64,000 nucleotides of DNA from Aurantimonas coralicida DSM 14790. GTDB lineage: Bacteria; Pseudomonadota; Alphaproteobacteria; Rhizobiales; Rhizobiaceae. Position 1 is the stretch's first letter; each line of letters starts with the position of its first letter. Below are positions 35,277 through 42,318 of this stretch, piece by piece. Both the position numbers and the translations under genes were made by a program. Location: NCBI RefSeq assembly GCF_000421645.1, contig NZ_ATXK01000001.1:124001-188000 (forward strand). Reading direction: 5' to 3'. The notes below the pieces were generated by a model. The model saw nothing but the letters and a program-made list of their open reading frames with translations, was not told where the DNA came from and searched no databases.

Positions 35277-36706
<1,430 letters not shown>

Positions 36707-36906: not shown

Positions 36907-38994
36907 ATGTCCGACATATCGACCCTCCTCGACACGCTCGGCCCCTGCGACCCGACCCTGCGCATCGGCGTGGTGGACGGCACGCCCGACCTCGCCATCC
37001 CCGCCCTCGCCGATGCGCGGCTCGACCTGGAGCCCACGATGCGCATTGCCGAGGCGCACGGGCCGGACGCCCATGGCACCGAGATCTGCAGCGTGCTGTT
37101 CGACCGCGAGGGCGGCCTGGCCCGCGGCTGCAGCGGTCTCATCCTGCCGGTGTTCTTCCCCGATCCGCGCCCCGCCTACATGGCGCCCCGCGCCACCCAG
37201 ACCGACATCGCGCGCGGGATCTACATGGCGGTCGAGCGCGGTGTGGCGATCGTCAACATCAGCGCCGGCCAGCTGTCCTCGACGCCCGAGGCGTCCCGCC
37301 ATCTGGAGGATGCGCTGGATCTGTGCGAGCGCAAGGGCATCCTCGTCGTGGCCGCCACCGGCAATGACGGCTGCGCCTGCCTACATGTCCCGGCCGCCGT
37401 CGCCAGCGTTCTGGCGGTCGGCGCGATGGATGCGGCGGGCCGGCCGCTGCAAAGCTCCAATTTCGGCGCGAGCTACGGCGCCAACGGCATCCTGGCGCCC
37501 GGCGCGGGCCTGACCGTCTCCAGCCTGCGCGGCGAACGCGTCCAGCGCAGCGGCTCGAGCTTCGCCACCGCGGTGGTCACCGGGGTCGCCGCACGGCTGC
37601 TGTCGGCCGCCCGACGCGCCGAGAGGTCCCTCGGCCCGCTTGACATCCGCCGGATCCTCATCGAGACCGCCCGCCCCTGCGACCCGCAGGCCGATGGCGA
37701 GTGTGCGCGGGTTCTCGCCGGACGGCTCGACGTTCGGGGAGCGATCGAACGCCTTCGTCAGACACTGGAGCCGGAGCTGGAGGGGGCGGTTTTCCTCCCG
37801 CGATCCGGGAACGACCAAGCTGGGAGAGAGCCAATGATCAGGGAAACCCTATCCGTCAGCCCGTCCGCGGCGACCATGTCCCCGCCCGGACGATCCGGCA
37901 TCGCCGGCGCCGTCCTTCAGTCCGATTGCGGCTGTGGCCGCGGCGGCAAGAAGCAGGCGGCGCAGCAGGAACTGGCCGCCGGCGCGATGGACGACGCGGA
38001 CGAGTTCGACGAGGACATGCTCGCCGCCGGCGACGATGGCGGGGATGACGACGACGGCGACGATGATGTGGAGGTCGCGGGCGCCATGCAGTCGGCCCGG
38101 CCGGTGCGGCGGCGGCGCGGCGCGCTGGTAGAGGCCCGCGAGGTCCGGCAGTCGAGCGTGACCCAGCAGGGCTGCGGTTGCGGCGGCGCGGCCAAGGAGC
38201 CGCAGAAGGTCTATGCCATCGGCTCGGTCTGGTTCGATTTCGGCAACGAGCCGCGATACGACGCCATCGTCCAGCGCATGGGCGATCCCGTCGCCGCCAA
38301 CACGCCGGCGGCGCTGATCGACATGCTGAAGAGCGATCTGTCCTTCGCCACCGGCATCACCTTCATCCTGATGCAGGAACAGATCCCGATCTACGCCATC
38401 ACACCGGCCGGCCCCTTCGCCCAGGAGGTCTATGCCGACCTGCTCGACGCCATGCAGACCAGCCTCGACAACACCGGCGATTTGCAGCGCGTCGCGATCC
38501 CGGGCTTCGTCCACGGTTCGACGCGGCTGATGAACGGCCAGATCCTGCCGGTGATCTATCCCGACCCGCGCGGCATGAGCAAATGGAAGCCGATGGAGCT
38601 GGTCAACGCCGCCAAGGCCGCGATCGGCGAGGAGAGCGTCAGCGACGACGCGATCTTCAACTTCCTCGTGCGCACCTATGACGAATTGCGCAATCTGGGC
38701 ATCAGCCCCGAGGACCGGGCGATCAACTTCGCCGCCACCAATGCCTATCAGGGCGCCAGCGTCTTTGCCGACGGCATGAATCGCGGGCTCGAGCTCTACA
38801 GCATCACCGTCGCGCGCAGCCCGATCTGCCGGCCGGATTCCGATTGCTGGGATGTGCAGGTGACGATGTTCGACGCCGAGAACGAGCGGCGCGCCGCCCG
38901 CGTCTACCGCTTCACGGTGGATGTCAGCGAGGTCCTGCCCGTCACCGTCGGCGCCGGCCGCAACTGGAGCGTCCCGCTCAGCGCGTTGACGTGA
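36907..38994 (+). CDS. PatG-like cyanobactin-type maturation protease
   Basis: 695 residues. Residues 15 to about 285 are a subtilisin (S8) domain of PatA/PatG type with Asp24 (GVVDGTPDL), His56 (DAHGTEICSVLFD), Asn153 (ATGNDGC) and Ser218 (SGSSFATAVV), so all catalytic residues are present. A linker (290-433) holds two CGCG motifs (341-344, 423-426), a strongly acidic stretch (361-390) and a stretch similar to the leaders of the downstream peptides (394-408). Residues 435-690 match the PatG C-terminal domains: VYAIGSVWFDFGNEPRYD, PIYAITPAGPFAQEVY, IPGFVHGSTRLMNGQ and VIYPDPRGMSKW. Unlike PatG it has no oxidase domain. No signal peptide; likely cytoplasmic. First gene of a locus with three small peptides. 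Confidence 0.88.
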   Translation: MSDISTLLDTLGPCDPTLRIGVVDGTPDLAIPALADARLDLEPTMRIAEAHGPDAHGTEICSVLFDREGGLARGCSGLILPVFFPDPRPAYMAPRATQTDIARGIYMAVERGVAIVNISAGQLSSTPEASRHLEDALDLCERKGILVVAATGNDGCACLHVPAAVASVLAVGAMDAAGRPLQSSNFGASYGANGILAPGAGLTVSSLRGERVQRSGSSFATAVVTGVAARLLSAARRAERSLGPLDIRRILIETARPCDPQADGECARVLAGRLDVRGAIERLRQTLEPELEGAVFLPRSGNDQAGREPMIRETLSVSPSAATMSPPGRSGIAGAVLQSDCGCGRGGKKQAAQQELAAGAMDDADEFDEDMLAAGDDGGDDDDGDDDVEVAGAMQSARPVRRRRGALVEAREVRQSSVTQQGCGCGGAAKEPQKVYAIGSVWFDFGNEPRYDAIVQRMGDPVAANTPAALIDMLKSDLSFATGITFILMQEQIPIYAITPAGPFAQEVYADLLDAMQTSLDNTGDLQRVAIPGFVHGSTRLMNGQILPVIYPDPRGMSKWKPMELVNAAKAAIGEESVSDDAIFNFLVRTYDELRNLGISPEDRAINFAATNAYQGASVFADGMNRGLELYSITVARSPICRPDSDCWDVQVTMFDAENERRAARVYRFTVDVSEVLPVTVGAGRNWSVPLSALT
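37822..37836 (+). promoter_or_regulatory. Internal ribosome site and ATG within the protease gene
   Basis: GGGAGAGAG (37822-37830) precedes an in-frame ATG at 37834 by a few bases. Initiation here would give a 386-residue product holding the CGCG linker and the PatG-type C-terminal domain but no protease. Seen in sequence; use is unproven. Confidence 0.35.
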
Positions 38995-39095
38995 CCCGAG
39001 CCCATCCGCCGGGCCTGCCTGCGCGCGCCCGGCGGTTCCCGGCGTCGGCGCATGATGTGCCGGCGCCAGACCTGCGAACCTGAAGGAGAACCAAC

Positions 39096-39230
39096 ATGAG
39101 ACGACCGATCCAGGCTCCGCCCGTCCAGCGCCATGGCAGCGGCCTGGCACAACTCTCGGGCACGGTCAGCCAGTCCGGCTGCTGCGTGCGGGTGGCCGGA
39201 ATCTGCCTCGCCAGCTCTCCGATCTGCTGA
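39096..39230 (+). CDS. Candidate precursor peptide 1 (44 aa, Cys-rich C-terminus)
   Basis: 44 residues, ATG at 39096 with a strong AAGGAGAA site. N-terminus MRRPIQAPPVQR shares P4, Q6, A7, P9 and R12 with the two following peptides. A middle part (SGLAQLSGTVSQSG) leads to a C-terminal stretch with four cysteines (C29, C30, C37, C44) ending in Cys. Charge is low in the last 20 residues. No signal peptide and no GG cleavage site. Its position 101 bases after the protease stop, the shared leader and the protease family point to a ribosomal peptide precursor. It could also be a small metal-binding or structural peptide. No homologue is known to me. Confidence 0.7.
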   Translation: MRRPIQAPPVQRHGSGLAQLSGTVSQSGCCVRVAGICLASSPIC

Positions 39231-39382
39231 ACGGGCCGGATCATCCGAGCCCGCATCGGAAGACCGTTCGGCCTTAAAGACCCGCCGGTCGGTCCCAACG
39301 GGATGGGCGTCGCGCGACAGGCGCGCCGGCCATCCGGACATGCCAACGACCCACAGCCAGTCACCAACAGGGAGAAGTCATC

Positions 39383-39595
39383 ATGAGATCCCCCATGCAA
39401 TCGGCTCCGGTCATGCGCGGAGCGACTTTCGTCACGGATTCGGGCGGCGTCGGCCAGTCCTTCAGCTGGCGATGCCTGCTGAAGTGTGGCGTCAAGCTCG
39501 CCCGCTGCGCCCCCCAGTGCATTCCGAACCCGCTGAGTTCCGGCTGCATCAGCTGTCTCGGCTCGTCCTACAACACCTGCAAGAATTGCTTCTGA
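39383..39595 (+). CDS. Candidate precursor peptide 2 (70 aa, eight Cys)
   Basis: 70 residues, ATG at 39383 with AGGGAGAAG seven bases upstream. N-terminus MRSPMQSAPVMR shares the P4/Q6/[A,S]7/P9/V10/R12 pattern with peptide 1, and both have an SGxVxQS word before the first Cys (residues 20-26 here). The last 40 residues carry eight cysteines at 31, 35, 42, 46, 55, 58, 66 and 69: CX3C-X6-CX3C-X8-CX2C-X7-CX2C. That pattern would suit four disulfides, thioethers or two metal sites. The tail ends CKNCF. Same strand and probably same transcript as the protease. Confidence 0.75.
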   Translation: MRSPMQSAPVMRGATFVTDSGGVGQSFSWRCLLKCGVKLARCAPQCIPNPLSSGCISCLGSSYNTCKNCF

Positions 39596-39605
39596 CGACA
39601 CCGGC

Positions 39606-39637
39606 GATCGCCGGCCCATCCGACCGGGCCGGCGGTC
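39606..39637 (+). terminator. Hairpin between peptides 2 and 3
   Basis: GATCGCCGGCCC (39606-39617) pairs with GGGCCGGCGGTC (39626-39637), 12 pairs with one G-T, loop of eight bases. No T-run follows. It begins 10 bases after the peptide 2 stop and may stabilise the 3' end or partly stop transcription before peptide 3. Confidence 0.45.
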
Positions 39638-39755
39638 GCCCCGCAACGCACGATCCGCGTTGCACAAATGGACCCCACGGTCCGAGACTCGCCGCGTGCT
39701 ACGCCTCTTGCGAGCGCGCCCCCGCATGATCCCCTTCGACAGGGAGGCTCAGACG

Positions 39756-39953
39756 ATGGACATGCCCCGTCAGGCGAAGCCCCAGCCTCGCAATTTCATG
39801 CAGGAACTCGTCGGCCGGCAATGGGCGCCGACGGCCGAGGACCGCAGCGTGCCCGAAGCGCTGCGCCTGGAGGAGACCACCAGGCCGAAGCGCCGTCGCA
39901 AGAAGGCGGACGGCGCGTGCCTGCGCCAGCTCATGACCTTTTCGGTCGGCTGA
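39756..39953 (+). CDS. Small protein with the same leader-like N-terminus (peptide 3, 65 aa)
   Basis: 65 residues from the ATG at 39756, chosen because AGGGAGG (39741-39747) lies eight bases upstream. N-terminus MDMPRQAKPQPR keeps P4, Q6, A7, P9 and R12 of peptides 1 and 2, although the rest differs: FMQELVGRQWAPTAEDR, a basic KRRRKK patch at about 47-52, and one cysteine (C56) near the end. It may be a third substrate of the protease or an accessory peptide. It stops 24 bases before the convergent proline iminopeptidase 2. Confidence 0.6.
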   Translation: MDMPRQAKPQPRNFMQELVGRQWAPTAEDRSVPEALRLEETTRPKRRRKKADGACLRQLMTFSVG

Positions 39954-39977: not shown

Positions 39978-40943
39978 TCACAATTCCCTTGCGAAGCGCT
40001 CCGTCGCTTTCAGGAGTTCGTTCAGGATGCCCGGCTCGGCGAAAGCGTGGCCGGCGCCCTCGACCATGCGATAATCCGCCCGCACCCAGGCCTGGGCCAG
40101 CTGCCAGGAGGTGATCGCCGGCGTCACGACGTCGTAGCGCCCCTGCACGATGACCCCCGGAATGTCGGCGAGCCGGCCGGCGTCGCGGATCAGCTGCCCC
40201 TCCTCCAGCCACAGATCATGGTAGAAATAGTGGTTCTCCAGCCGGGCGAAGGCGATCGTCGCGTCCGAGACGGGACCGCCGGACGCCGGCTCGCCGCCCG
40301 GGGCGGTCCGCAGCATGACCGTCGCCGATTCCCAGCCGGTCCAGGCCCGCGCCGCCTCGGCCCGCACCGCCCGGTCCGGGTCGGTCAGGCGCATGCGATA
40401 CGCCGCGATGATGTCGTCCTGCTCATTCGCCGGGATCGGCCCCAGGAGGTTTTCCCAGCGGTCGGGAAACAGCCGGTTGGCACCGCCGTCATAGAACCAG
40501 TCGAGCTCGGCCCGCCGGCCCGAGAAGATGCCGCGCAGGATCAGCCCCGAAACGCGCTCCGGATAGGTCTCGGCATAGGTGAGCGCCAGCGTCGCCCCCC
40601 AGGAGCCGCCGAACATCAGCCAGCGCTCGACGCCGATCAACTCGCGCAGCCGCTCCAGATCGGCGACCAGATGCCATGTTGTGTTGCCCTCCAGCTCGCC
40701 GAGCGGGGTCGAGCGCCCGCAACCGCGCTGGTCGAACAGCAGGATCCGGTAGCGCTCCGGATCGAACAGCCGCCGGTGCTGGGGCGACGCACCGCTCCCG
40801 GGCCCGCCATGCAGGAACACCACCGGGATGCCGCGCGGATTGCCGCACAATTCGTAATACAGCTCGTGCCCGTCGCCGACGGCAAGGCGTCCGGTCTCAT
40901 AGGGCTCGATGGCGGGATAGGGCTTGCGCGTTGGTTCACTCAT
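39978..40943 (-). CDS. pip: Proline iminopeptidase 2 (S33 alpha/beta hydrolase)
   Basis: 321 residues from the ATG at 40943; a longer frame adds 34 residues without support. Same layout as the paralogue at 35277-36242: [32 protein letters not shown] (key residues [10 protein letters not shown]), nucleophile in FGGSWGATLAL, WFYDGG in the cap, EEGQLIRDAGRLADIPG and EGAGHAFAEPG with the catalytic His. Complete and probably active on N-terminal Pro peptides. Its position beside the peptide genes, and the Pro-rich leaders of those peptides, make a processing role possible but unproven. Confidence 0.92.
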   Translation of the reverse strand: MSEPTRKPYPAIEPYETGRLAVGDGHELYYELCGNPRGIPVVFLHGGPGSGASPQHRRLFDPERYRILLFDQRGCGRSTPLGELEGNTTWHLVADLERLRELIGVERWLMFGGSWGATLALTYAETYPERVSGLILRGIFSGRRAELDWFYDGGANRLFPDRWENLLGPIPANEQDDIIAAYRMRLTDPDRAVRAEAARAWTGWESATVMLRTAPGGEPASGGPVSDATIAFARLENHYFYHDLWLEEGQLIRDAGRLADIPGVIVQGRYDVVTPAITSWQLAQAWVRADYRMVEGAGHAFAEPGILNELLKATERFAREL

Positions 40944-41114
40944 TCCCTGCCTTGTAGGGCAGACAACGCCGCTTGGCATCGGGGCACACCGATGAATTCT
41001 CGACGAGCGACGGGGAAGTGCCGAGTGCCGAGCCGACTGCGACATCCCGCTGCCGCAACGTCACGCCTAGCGGCTCCGCGACGCCCAACCGCCACCGCCA
41101 GATCGCCAACCTCC

Positions 41115-42250
41115 CAGCTGCGTCATCCTCGGGCTCCGACCCGAGGCCCCATGCCAAACCGTTCCCACCGCCGCCACGGCAACGGGCTCCCCTCCCCGAT
41201 CGCCGCGACGGGGCGATGCCGAGGAATGGGTCCTCGGGTCAAGCCCGAGGATGACGCCGTGGGTGGGGTGTGTGTTGTGGATGGATGGCAAGCGTTGATG
41301 GGGTATGCGCAGTGGGTGACTGGCAGCGTGATGGCGGCCCTTGAATGGTTGATCGACACAGACGCCCGCACTGAACTCCCACCAGCTCAGCCCCCGCCCT
41401 CGCCACAAAGGGCGCCGCCCTCCCAGCCGCGTCATCCTCGGGCTCCGACCCGAGGCCCCATGCCAAGCCGTTCCCACCGCCGCCACGGCAACGGGCGCCC
41501 CTCCCCGTCCGCCGCATCGTGCGCGATGCCGAGGCATGGGTCCTCGGGTCAAGCCCGAGGATGACGCCGTGGGCGGTAGGAGCGCCGTGGATGAATGCAG
41601 GCGTTGGTTGGGTATGCGCAGAGGGTAACTGGCAGGCGTGATGGTAGCGCTTGAATGGGTGACCGGCGCAGTCGCCAGCACGGCACTCCCACCAGCTCAG
41701 CGGCCGCGCCCTCACCACAAAGCGCGCCAACCTCCAAGCTGCGTCATCCTCGGGCTCCGACCCGAGGACCCATGCCAAACCGTTCCCACCGCCGCCACGG
41801 CAACGGGCGCCTCTCCCCGACCGCCGCGACGTGGCGTTGCCGAGGAATGGGTCCTCGGGTCAAGCCCGAGGATGACGGCGTGGGCGGAAGGAGCGTTGCG
41901 GACGGCTGGAAGGCGTTGATGGGGTATGCGCAGAGGGAAACTGGCGGGCGTTGAGGTGGCCCTTGGATGGTTGACCAGGGCAGACGCCCGCACAGCACAC
42001 CCCCGCGGTTCAGCACCCCCCGCCCTCGCCACAAAGGGCGCCGACCTCCCAGCCGCGTCATCCTCGGGCTCTGACCCGAGGACCCATGCCAAACCGCTCC
42101 CACCGCCGCCACGGCAGCGGGCGCCCCTCCCCGATCGCCGCGACGTGGGGATGCCGAGGCATGGGTCCTCGGGTCAAGCCCGAAGATGACGCCGTGGGTG
42201 GGATGAACGGCGTGGAGGGATGGCAGGTGTGATGGTGACCAGTGAATGGA
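41115..42250. repeat. Array of four tandem ~310-bp units, each with a long inverted repeat
   Basis: Units begin (at the word CGTCATCCTCGGGCT) at 41121, 41430, 41742 and 42056, steps of 309, 312 and 314 bases. In each, a left arm of about 26 bases (CGTCATCCTCGGGCT..GACCCGAGG) and a right arm (CCTCGGGTC..GCCCGAGGATGACG) are near-perfect inverted copies separated by roughly 85 bases; unit 1 arms are 41120-41146 and 41231-41256. The remaining part of each unit (GTTGATGGGGTATGCGCAG.., CGCCCGCAC..) is also repeated with small changes. No protein is encoded; the many short open frames are shadows. The arms resemble mobile palindromic repeats common in intergenic DNA of this order. The 170 bases before the first unit (40944-41114) hold nothing recognised besides the pip2 upstream region. 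Confidence 0.9.
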
Positions 42251-42318
42251 TAGCCGGTGCAGTTGCCAGCACGTGGGTCCCAGCACCGCAGGCGCCCACC
42301 GCCGCCCCACTGCCGCCG

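Follow-up and report, generated by a model that had tools for sequence, protein, structure and literature searches.

A PatA-type protease with leader-sharing small peptides in Aurantimonas coralicida, a candidate minimal system related to the cyanobactin pathways

A stretch of 64,000 nucleotides of the 4.6 Mb genome of Aurantimonas coralicida DSM 14790 (hereafter the window) carries on its + strand a gene for a 695-aa protease of the PatA/PatG family (36907..38994), followed by genes of 44, 70, and 65 codons for three small peptides, here called A (39096..39230), B (39383..39595), and C (39756..39953). We propose, with a probability of roughly three in four and from sequence comparison, that this locus is a minimal, PatA-only relative of the cyanobactin pathways whose products are linear Cys-rich peptides. 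The family and subtype of the protease, the family of the leader, the co-occurrence of protease and peptides, a conserved Ser boundary, and the absence of a YcaO gene or a second such protease nearby are observed directly. Peptides A and B would be precursors made up of a P-x4-P-V-x-R leader, a variable spacer, a cleavage site with QS at its end, and a core rich in Cys. Since a protease with the PatG_D/PatG_C domain of unknown function (DUF) is common to PatE, PatB, and the window peptides, the leader would dock on the protease probably via this domain, and a PatA-type cut after the Ser would then free cores of 17 residues (4 Cys) from peptide A and of 44 residues (8 Cys) from peptide B. The backbone of the released cores would be linear, and the cores would probably be disulfide-bonded or bind metal. 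Peptide C, which has the leader and no cleavage site, may have an accessory function comparable to the one assumed for PatB in cyanobactin clusters.

Family and subtype of the protease

The protease matches TIGR03895 with 787.9 bits (cut-off, 421.05) and has the architecture of that family, an S8 subtilase domain followed by PatG_D and PatG_C (Pfam). The S8 domain (residues 14–285, 36946..37761) contains D24, H56, and S218, which are invariant in 26 of 26 aligned sequences, and a disordered linker (residues 290–430, 37774..38196) leads to PatG_D and PatG_C, together the "cyanobactin DUF" (residues 434–690, 38206..38976; Pfam, 103.6 and 145.7 bits). The full S8 catalytic set and the PatG-type C-terminal domain, both recognized in an earlier note on this DNA, are thus present. 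In a PDB sequence search, the S8 residues matched 4h6v and 3zxx, which we take to be PatA, with ~210 bits each, and 4h6x, presumably the PatG macrocyclase, with 87.6 bits over residues 99–282 only (the entries are named subtilisin-like protein and thiazoline oxidase/subtilisin-like protease, respectively), and the tail (residues 434–690) matched 4uvq, which we take to be the structure of the PatG DUF, with 189.5 bits. The catalytic D and H are 32 residues apart in the window protease, 33–35 residues apart in four PatA-like relatives, and 71 residues apart in the PatG of a cyanobactin cluster from a Roseobacter metagenome-assembled genome (MAG; locus L028). Extra helices of PatG are described as its macrocyclization insert (PMC4663559). 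Because its S8 domain matches PatA structures and its D-to-H spacing is short, the window protease is, as judged from its sequence, of the leader-cutting PatA type and not of the ring-closing PatG type. It is the sole match to such a protease in its own genome at an E-value of 0.001, and the window contains one S8 place of this kind and no PatG-type C-terminal protease/macrocyclase. The nearest relative found is that of Aurantimonas manganoxydans (97% identity).

The shared leader, the predicted cleavage site, and their distribution

Alignments of type B (A1, 9 sequences), type A (A2, 6 sequences), and a further type absent from the window, A-prime (A3), share a common plan of leader, variable spacer, invariant Ser at about position 26, and Cys-rich core. 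The leader residues P4, P9, and R12 are invariant in all three alignments, as is the Ser preceding the core (24 of 24 precursors), and the alignments end at the last Cys region, with no follower behind the core. In peptides A and B the leader comprises residues 1–12, and the cut is predicted after S27 and S26, respectively. Type A shows the pattern QS-GCCV-V-G-C-P-C, with a core of 17 residues in the window, and A-prime the pattern DCCG-G-CC-GAC-C-G-CVPNIGQC. Peptide C has a leader of the same type, a conserved VGR-W, a CL-QL-TF end that is kept in most of its 9 aligned sequences (A4), and no QS-Cys site. In the AlphaFold model of peptide B, the predicted local distance difference test (pLDDT) score is below 50 at residues 1–3 and 5–25, and helices span residues 29–35, 37–46, and 53–69, so that the predicted fold starts just after QS. 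PatA enzymes are reported to cut after G(L/V)E(A/P)S (PMC10885120). The site in peptides A and B retains the Ser of this motif, preceded by xQ instead of E(A/P), and in two loci on Streptomyces plasmids (L055 and L056) some of the leader peptides still read GIEPS or AVEPS here.

The motif P-x4-P-[VI]-x-R also opens the cyanobactin proteins PatE and PatB; peptide C has P-Q-P-R in place of P-V-x-R. The PatB of one locus (L021; TIGR04220, 123.5 bits) starts MKLPKQSPPVKR, and PatE precursors of the same cyanobacterial loci start, for example, MDKQNLMPQAAQPVNR, continuing with an LAELSEE element and an SYDG follower. Profile comparisons, in which only the leader columns align and each E-value refers to a single comparison, related PatB to A2 (E 1.8e-6, probability 90%), A1 (E 4.8e-6, 86%), and A4 (E 2.4e-3, 12%; hhalign), and PatE to A2 (E 1.1e-3, 20%) and A3 (E 6.4e-3, 6%); A1 was related to A4 with E 3e-3 (10%) and PatB to PatE with E 0.031 (2%). 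The link of the leader to PatB is firm at the level of sequence similarity, and that to PatE depends chiefly on identical, equally spaced residues and on the shared protease. As a homologue of PatB, peptide C was rejected, its leader alone aligning at E 0.0024, and it is kept as a possible counterpart. The earlier statement that no described class with these leaders was known is not supported, the motif being that of cyanobactin PatE and PatB, and the accompanying statement that no PatE-like peptide is present holds for core and follower and fails for the leader, which is of the PatE/PatB type.

With the NCBIfam and Pfam models, the PatE models DUF5837 and TIGR03678 did not match the three window peptides, and at E 1 the only match of the small peptides was a weak one between peptide A and an unrelated family (E 0.12); the Roseobacter PatE was found by DUF5837 (above cut-off) and by TIGR03678 (below cut-off). 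Two candidate relatives from PDB sequence searches were discarded, namely tailspike chains (profile A3, E 0.82–1 only) and U1-agatoxin-Ta1a, which aligned with residues 26–53 of profile A1 (E 0.068, 16.7 bits) in a Cys-pattern resemblance on which we do not rely.

Peptides with this leader accumulate behind the protease. The motif derived in the earlier note, P-x-Q-[AS]-x-P-x-x-R, occurs in 53 of 589 small open reading frames (ORFs) within 3.5 kb downstream of 42 proteases, compared to 1 of 5,240 elsewhere in the same loci, with at least one such peptide in 32 of the 42 loci, and a relaxed motif, P-x4-P-[VIA]-x-R, within 6 kb in 86 of 891 near versus 26 of 4,883 far ORFs (37 of 41 loci; two of the far matches are further PatE copies); as the loci were retrieved through their protease and partly stem from close relatives, the matches do not represent independent events. 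The leader sharing is thus real. Leader peptides stand beside homologous proteases, the opposite of what the earlier note had named as refuting its reading, and the sequences point to a set of precursors of the kind seen in ribosomally synthesized and post-translationally modified peptides (RiPPs) that belongs with the protease, as the earlier note had suggested. Relatives of the peptides follow the protease in Aurantimonas, Jiella, Fulvimarina, Bauldia, strain IMCC20636, Eilatimonas, and three additional MAGs of Alphaproteobacteria, and alignments reveal counterparts of all three window peptides in other genera.

The protease is rare: with the A. coralicida genome counted each time, it is present in 8 of 397 genomes of the order, 2 of 385 genomes of the class, and 2 of 398 genomes of the phylum. 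Profile A1 of type B matched 8 of the 397 genomes of the order at E 0.01, five of them strongly (E <1e-10). All five encode the protease, each strong match lies within ~0.5 kb behind it, and none lies away from a protease; three of the five genomes (own genome, Bauldia, and G773) had contributed rows to A1, which leaves G526 and G558 as independent ones, the peptide frame in G558 holding a stop. A weak match in G529 is located ~560 bases behind its protease, and the protease-positive genomes G098 and G799 have no type B match. Weak matches in G507 and G624 (E 0.003 and 0.006), with stops inside and no protease, were taken as chance.

In agreement with the earlier note, no YcaO gene was found in the window; the genome has a single YcaO match, on a different contig (C3). 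YcaO is found in 9 of 43 loci, all of cyanobactin type (eight in the cyanobactin PatA branch of the protease tree, the ninth, L024, being close kin of one of them). In the other 34 loci, among them the window, YcaO is absent and a single S8 place of the protease's kind is present, with the reservation that some of these stretches are short and that L050 is on the same contig as L032. Loci in which a single PatA-like protease is accompanied by leader peptides, with no YcaO close by, are also found in other Alphaproteobacteria, Cyanobacteria, Gemmatimonadota, and Actinomycetota.

The linker of the protease (pLDDT ~30 overall, 26–37 per block over residues 291–430) contains a site that resembles the peptide cleavage site, QS-DCGCG (residues 338–344, 37918..37938), and a second CGCG site, QQ-GCGCGG (residues 420–427, 38164..38187). 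The first reads LQS-DCGCG in the window protease and TPS-DCGCG in L019, L030, and L036, and a Cys-x-Cys motif is present in 37 of 38 protease linkers. The residue before the Ser of the peptides is Q in 18 of 18 precursors of A1–A3 from one clade, a single branch of the protease tree (support, 100/100), and also in the one precursor of L032, whose protease is absent from the tree; none of the 5 precursors from the other alphaproteobacterial clade has Q there, the residue being P or A. In the linkers, QS is found 24 times versus 8.9 expected in the 10 Q-clade sequences and 27 times versus 25.0 in the 28 others, PS 18 times versus 11.7 and 84 times versus 38.2, respectively. Peptides and linker thus show a parallel change of the residue before the Ser, from P/A to Q, which is suggestive and not conclusive.

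Known systems and rival explanations

Cyanobactin pathways (PatA, PatG, PatE, and PatB) share with the window a PatA-type protease with the C-terminal DUF, the P-x4-P-V-x-R leader, and the Ser before the core. In contrast to them, the window has no PatG macrocyclase, no YcaO (PatD) nearby, no LAELSEE element, and no AYDG-type follower, and its Cys-rich cores of 17–44 residues extend to the C-terminus. Heterocycle-free cyanobactins, presumably of the anacyclamide/piricyclamide type, are YcaO-independent like the window; unlike it, they keep PatG and make macrocycles. Cyanobactins without the D protein have been described (PMC4603692), as have the linear cyanobactins aeruginosamide and viridisamide, which resemble the proposed window products in not being macrocyclic and differ from them in being prenylated, methylated, thiazole-bearing peptides of 3–5 residues (PMC4663559). 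In Streptomyces scabies, SCAB_66631, flagged as cyanobactin-like by RiPPMiner, is reported as a PatG-DUF homologue adjoining four short peptides (PMC7369419). By its description, this locus differs from the window in homology confined to the DUF and in the presence of other putative biosynthetic proteins. S8 leader peptidases of the NisP/ElxP/AmyP type have, to our knowledge, no PatG DUF and different leaders. NisP, ElxP, and AmyP, subtilisin-type enzymes like the window protease, remove leaders from lanthipeptide precursors (PMC10885120).

Judged by sequence, the window combines a ribosomal precursor with leader and core and a processing enzyme, as in RiPPs generally, and lacks the YcaO cyclodehydratase that marks the thiazole/oxazole-modified microcin (TOMM) or azole class. 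The leader is known in kind, as the cyanobactin type, and the system would be a variant of cyanobactin-related machinery. Among the open-licence papers listed, titles and abstract starts yielded no description of this protease–peptide system, which may nevertheless have been described before, and the accessible part of PMC10434180 contains nothing about cyanobactins.

Docking of the leader on the DUF would fit three observations from the literature. No role is known for the DUF shared by PatA and PatG (PMC4259220), PatA is reported to work extremely slowly in vitro (PMC4282754), and the heterocyclase can do almost without the first 25 residues of PatE (PMC3995012), so that the conserved leader start has no task assigned to it. 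At the window locus, the leader start and a protease with the DUF are retained although no heterocyclase or macrocyclase is nearby, and such a stripped-down system makes a two-component test of leader tag and protease tail domain possible. Should this test work, it would point to a peptide class missed by YcaO-based mining and to a leader peptidase that can be studied alone.

A broader and tentative proposal, to which we give less than even odds, is that P-x4-P-[VI]-x-R serves quite generally to dock proteins on PatG_D/PatG_C, that the linker is a tethered substrate to be clipped or displaced, and that PatA-only systems form a widespread class of their own. If so, every tag bearer (PatE, PatB, and the Cys-rich peptides) would be a client of the protease through the DUF, giving this domain its missing function. 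The real leader peptidase would then be the full-length enzyme with DUF and linker ([QPA]S-xCGCG sites), not the isolated S8 domain, and ring-making cyanobactins may derive from PatA-only systems.

Several observations weigh against a minimal PatA-only system. Ten of the 42 proteases have no strict-motif peptide (among these loci, the stretch of L034 stops at the protease and L009 has the motif minus its Gln), 4 of 41 loci lack even the relaxed motif, and some of its near matches are due to chance, among them the only ones of L046 and L049. Seven of the 53 strict matches are PatB of YcaO-bearing loci, so that 46 matches in 25 of 33 loci are left for loci without YcaO. The cleavage site deviates in one peptide of L030 (NAAG) and in L031 (KPQF), both outside A1–A3, and several Streptomyces leader peptides have GVEAD or GVEAA, with the Ser absent. 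The model of peptide B is moderate (mean pLDDT 64), and a fold search with it returned no match to a solved fold. The Q group represents a single evolutionary switch, and the Q/P covariation is thus a weak independent test; the linkers were cut by pattern, those of L011 and L026 being too long and those of L032, L035, and L057 excluded from the totals, the sequences are related, and the linker sites of L011 and L017 read QQ-C instead of QS-C. The protease gene is patchy, being present in a single one of 7 further Aurantimonas genomes, and the unlinked YcaO of the genome could act in trans. Finally, the PatG DUF is reported to show no binding to PatE' in nuclear magnetic resonance experiments (PMC4259220), which speaks against simple docking, at least for PatG.

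The earlier note offered, as an inference, that the protease cuts and macrocyclizes peptides as PatG does, a reading that can draw on TIGR03895 spanning both PatA and PatG, on the DUF common to both, and on a reported similarity of more than 40% between the two (PMC10885120). The PatA-like S8 domain without the macrocyclization insert or a spacing of the 71-residue type, the peptides without an AYDG-like follower, and the single such protein in the genome all argue against it, and we have discarded it as very improbable. Somewhat less improbable, though still unlikely, is that the peptides are regulators or inhibitors that dock by their leader to block or tune the protease, their Cys cores being used elsewhere or not at all. 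The QS-C-like sites in the linker, with which the peptides could compete, would suit such a role, as would peptide C and PatB, which carry the leader without a QS-Cys site, and PatB is reported to be dispensable and to have no known role (PMC4663559). Against this, a locus can hold several precursors that differ in their cores and share the conserved Ser boundary, as substrates would, and multi-copy sets such as those on the Streptomyces plasmids fit products better than one inhibitor.

Cleavage may also serve to produce intracellular metal-binding peptides, similar to metallothioneins or metal chaperones, instead of antibacterial ones, a variant that overlaps with the PatA-only system proposed here and that we consider doubtful, but the most credible of the alternatives. 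Peptide B has 8 Cys, Cys is dense in A and A-prime, CxC recurs throughout the linkers, an A-prime relative (L030) weakly matches the CopL metal-binding family (E 0.08), and a copper-related role has been proposed for a patellamide (PMC13266932). No transporter is seen conserved with the cluster (BLAST, ORFs of at least 100 codons), which would agree with an intracellular function. Yet neither sequence nor fold searches gave a significant match to known metal-binding peptides, and several Streptomyces cores without Cys show that this function cannot cover every relative. That the three small ORFs are chance frames or unrelated genes has practically no probability left: short ORFs are common in the G+C-rich DNA of the window and family matches amount to the single unrelated one of peptide A, but conservation of sequence and place across genera refutes this explanation.

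Gene layout and genomic surroundings

The coordinates, strand, and lengths given in the earlier note for the protease and the three small genes are correct, as is its assignment of a ribosome-binding site to each small gene, Shine–Dalgarno-like sequences being located just 5' of the three ATGs for peptide A (AAGGAG, 39083..39088), peptide B (GGGAG, 39370..39374), and peptide C (GGGAGG, 39742..39747), all on the + strand. The start of peptide C is an ATG internal to a listed ORF of 97 codons (39660–39953). Scans of the locus for a promoter and a terminator found none.

Conserved neighbours were sought by all-against-all BLAST of ORFs of at least 100 codons from 20 loci (E 1e-12), with 15 loci outside the Aurantimonadaceae tabulated. 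No other gene was found to track the protease and peptides across distant genera, although smaller or faster-evolving genes could escape this search. Local synteny in the Aurantimonadaceae comprises two iminopeptidase-like genes and a GFA gene. In the window, the paralogous iminopeptidase-like genes (35277–36242 and 39978–40940; 59% identity), alpha/beta-hydrolase genes presumably for proline iminopeptidases, stand on either side of the GFA gene and the cluster; both, as well as the GFA gene, have relatives in four other Aurantimonadaceae loci, their order having been compared by DNA alignment in L007. In this A. manganoxydans locus (L007:12573–14226), two type B genes are separated by a frame of 443 codons on the minus strand that resembles a transposase, IS256-like by eye; both this frame and the additional type B gene are missing from the window. 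Four loci of the other alphaproteobacterial clade, L019, L027, L036, and L048, have lepA next to the cluster (Pfam for L019, 80–97% identity for the rest), and the lepA side is a possible insertion hot spot. Further flanking genes are common to L019, L027, and L030, along with scattered weak pairs (e.g. L012/L016, 31–33%).

Several of the other loci differ from the window in content or state. A Pseudoxanthobacter MAG (L032:9866–11901, on the contig of L050) has interrupted protease and type B frames and A-prime and C genes that look intact, and its protease and type B peptide may be decaying together. On the Streptomyces plasmids (L055:7947–12490 and L056:7965–11981), a PatA-like protease is accompanied by several leader peptides, which are in part annotated as hypothetical proteins and in part unannotated, and several of their cores contain no Cys (e.g. 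after GIEPS and AVEPS). The Roseobacter MAG carries a complete-looking cyanobactin cluster outside Cyanobacteria (L028:9893–17907), with PatA, a PatB-like ORF, an 851-aa YcaO protein, PatE with a DUF5837 match, and PatG. In the A. coralicida genome itself, the YcaO gene on contig C3 (L069, G000:C3, 3513–6834) has a TfuA-like neighbour, identified by eye, and a third gene beside it, perhaps forming a separate peptide-modifying system. Within the window, four direct copies of a ~310-bp unit, 61–90% identical to the first over the compared parts, are located between the second iminopeptidase-like gene and the Cys-tRNA synthetase gene (41104–42316).

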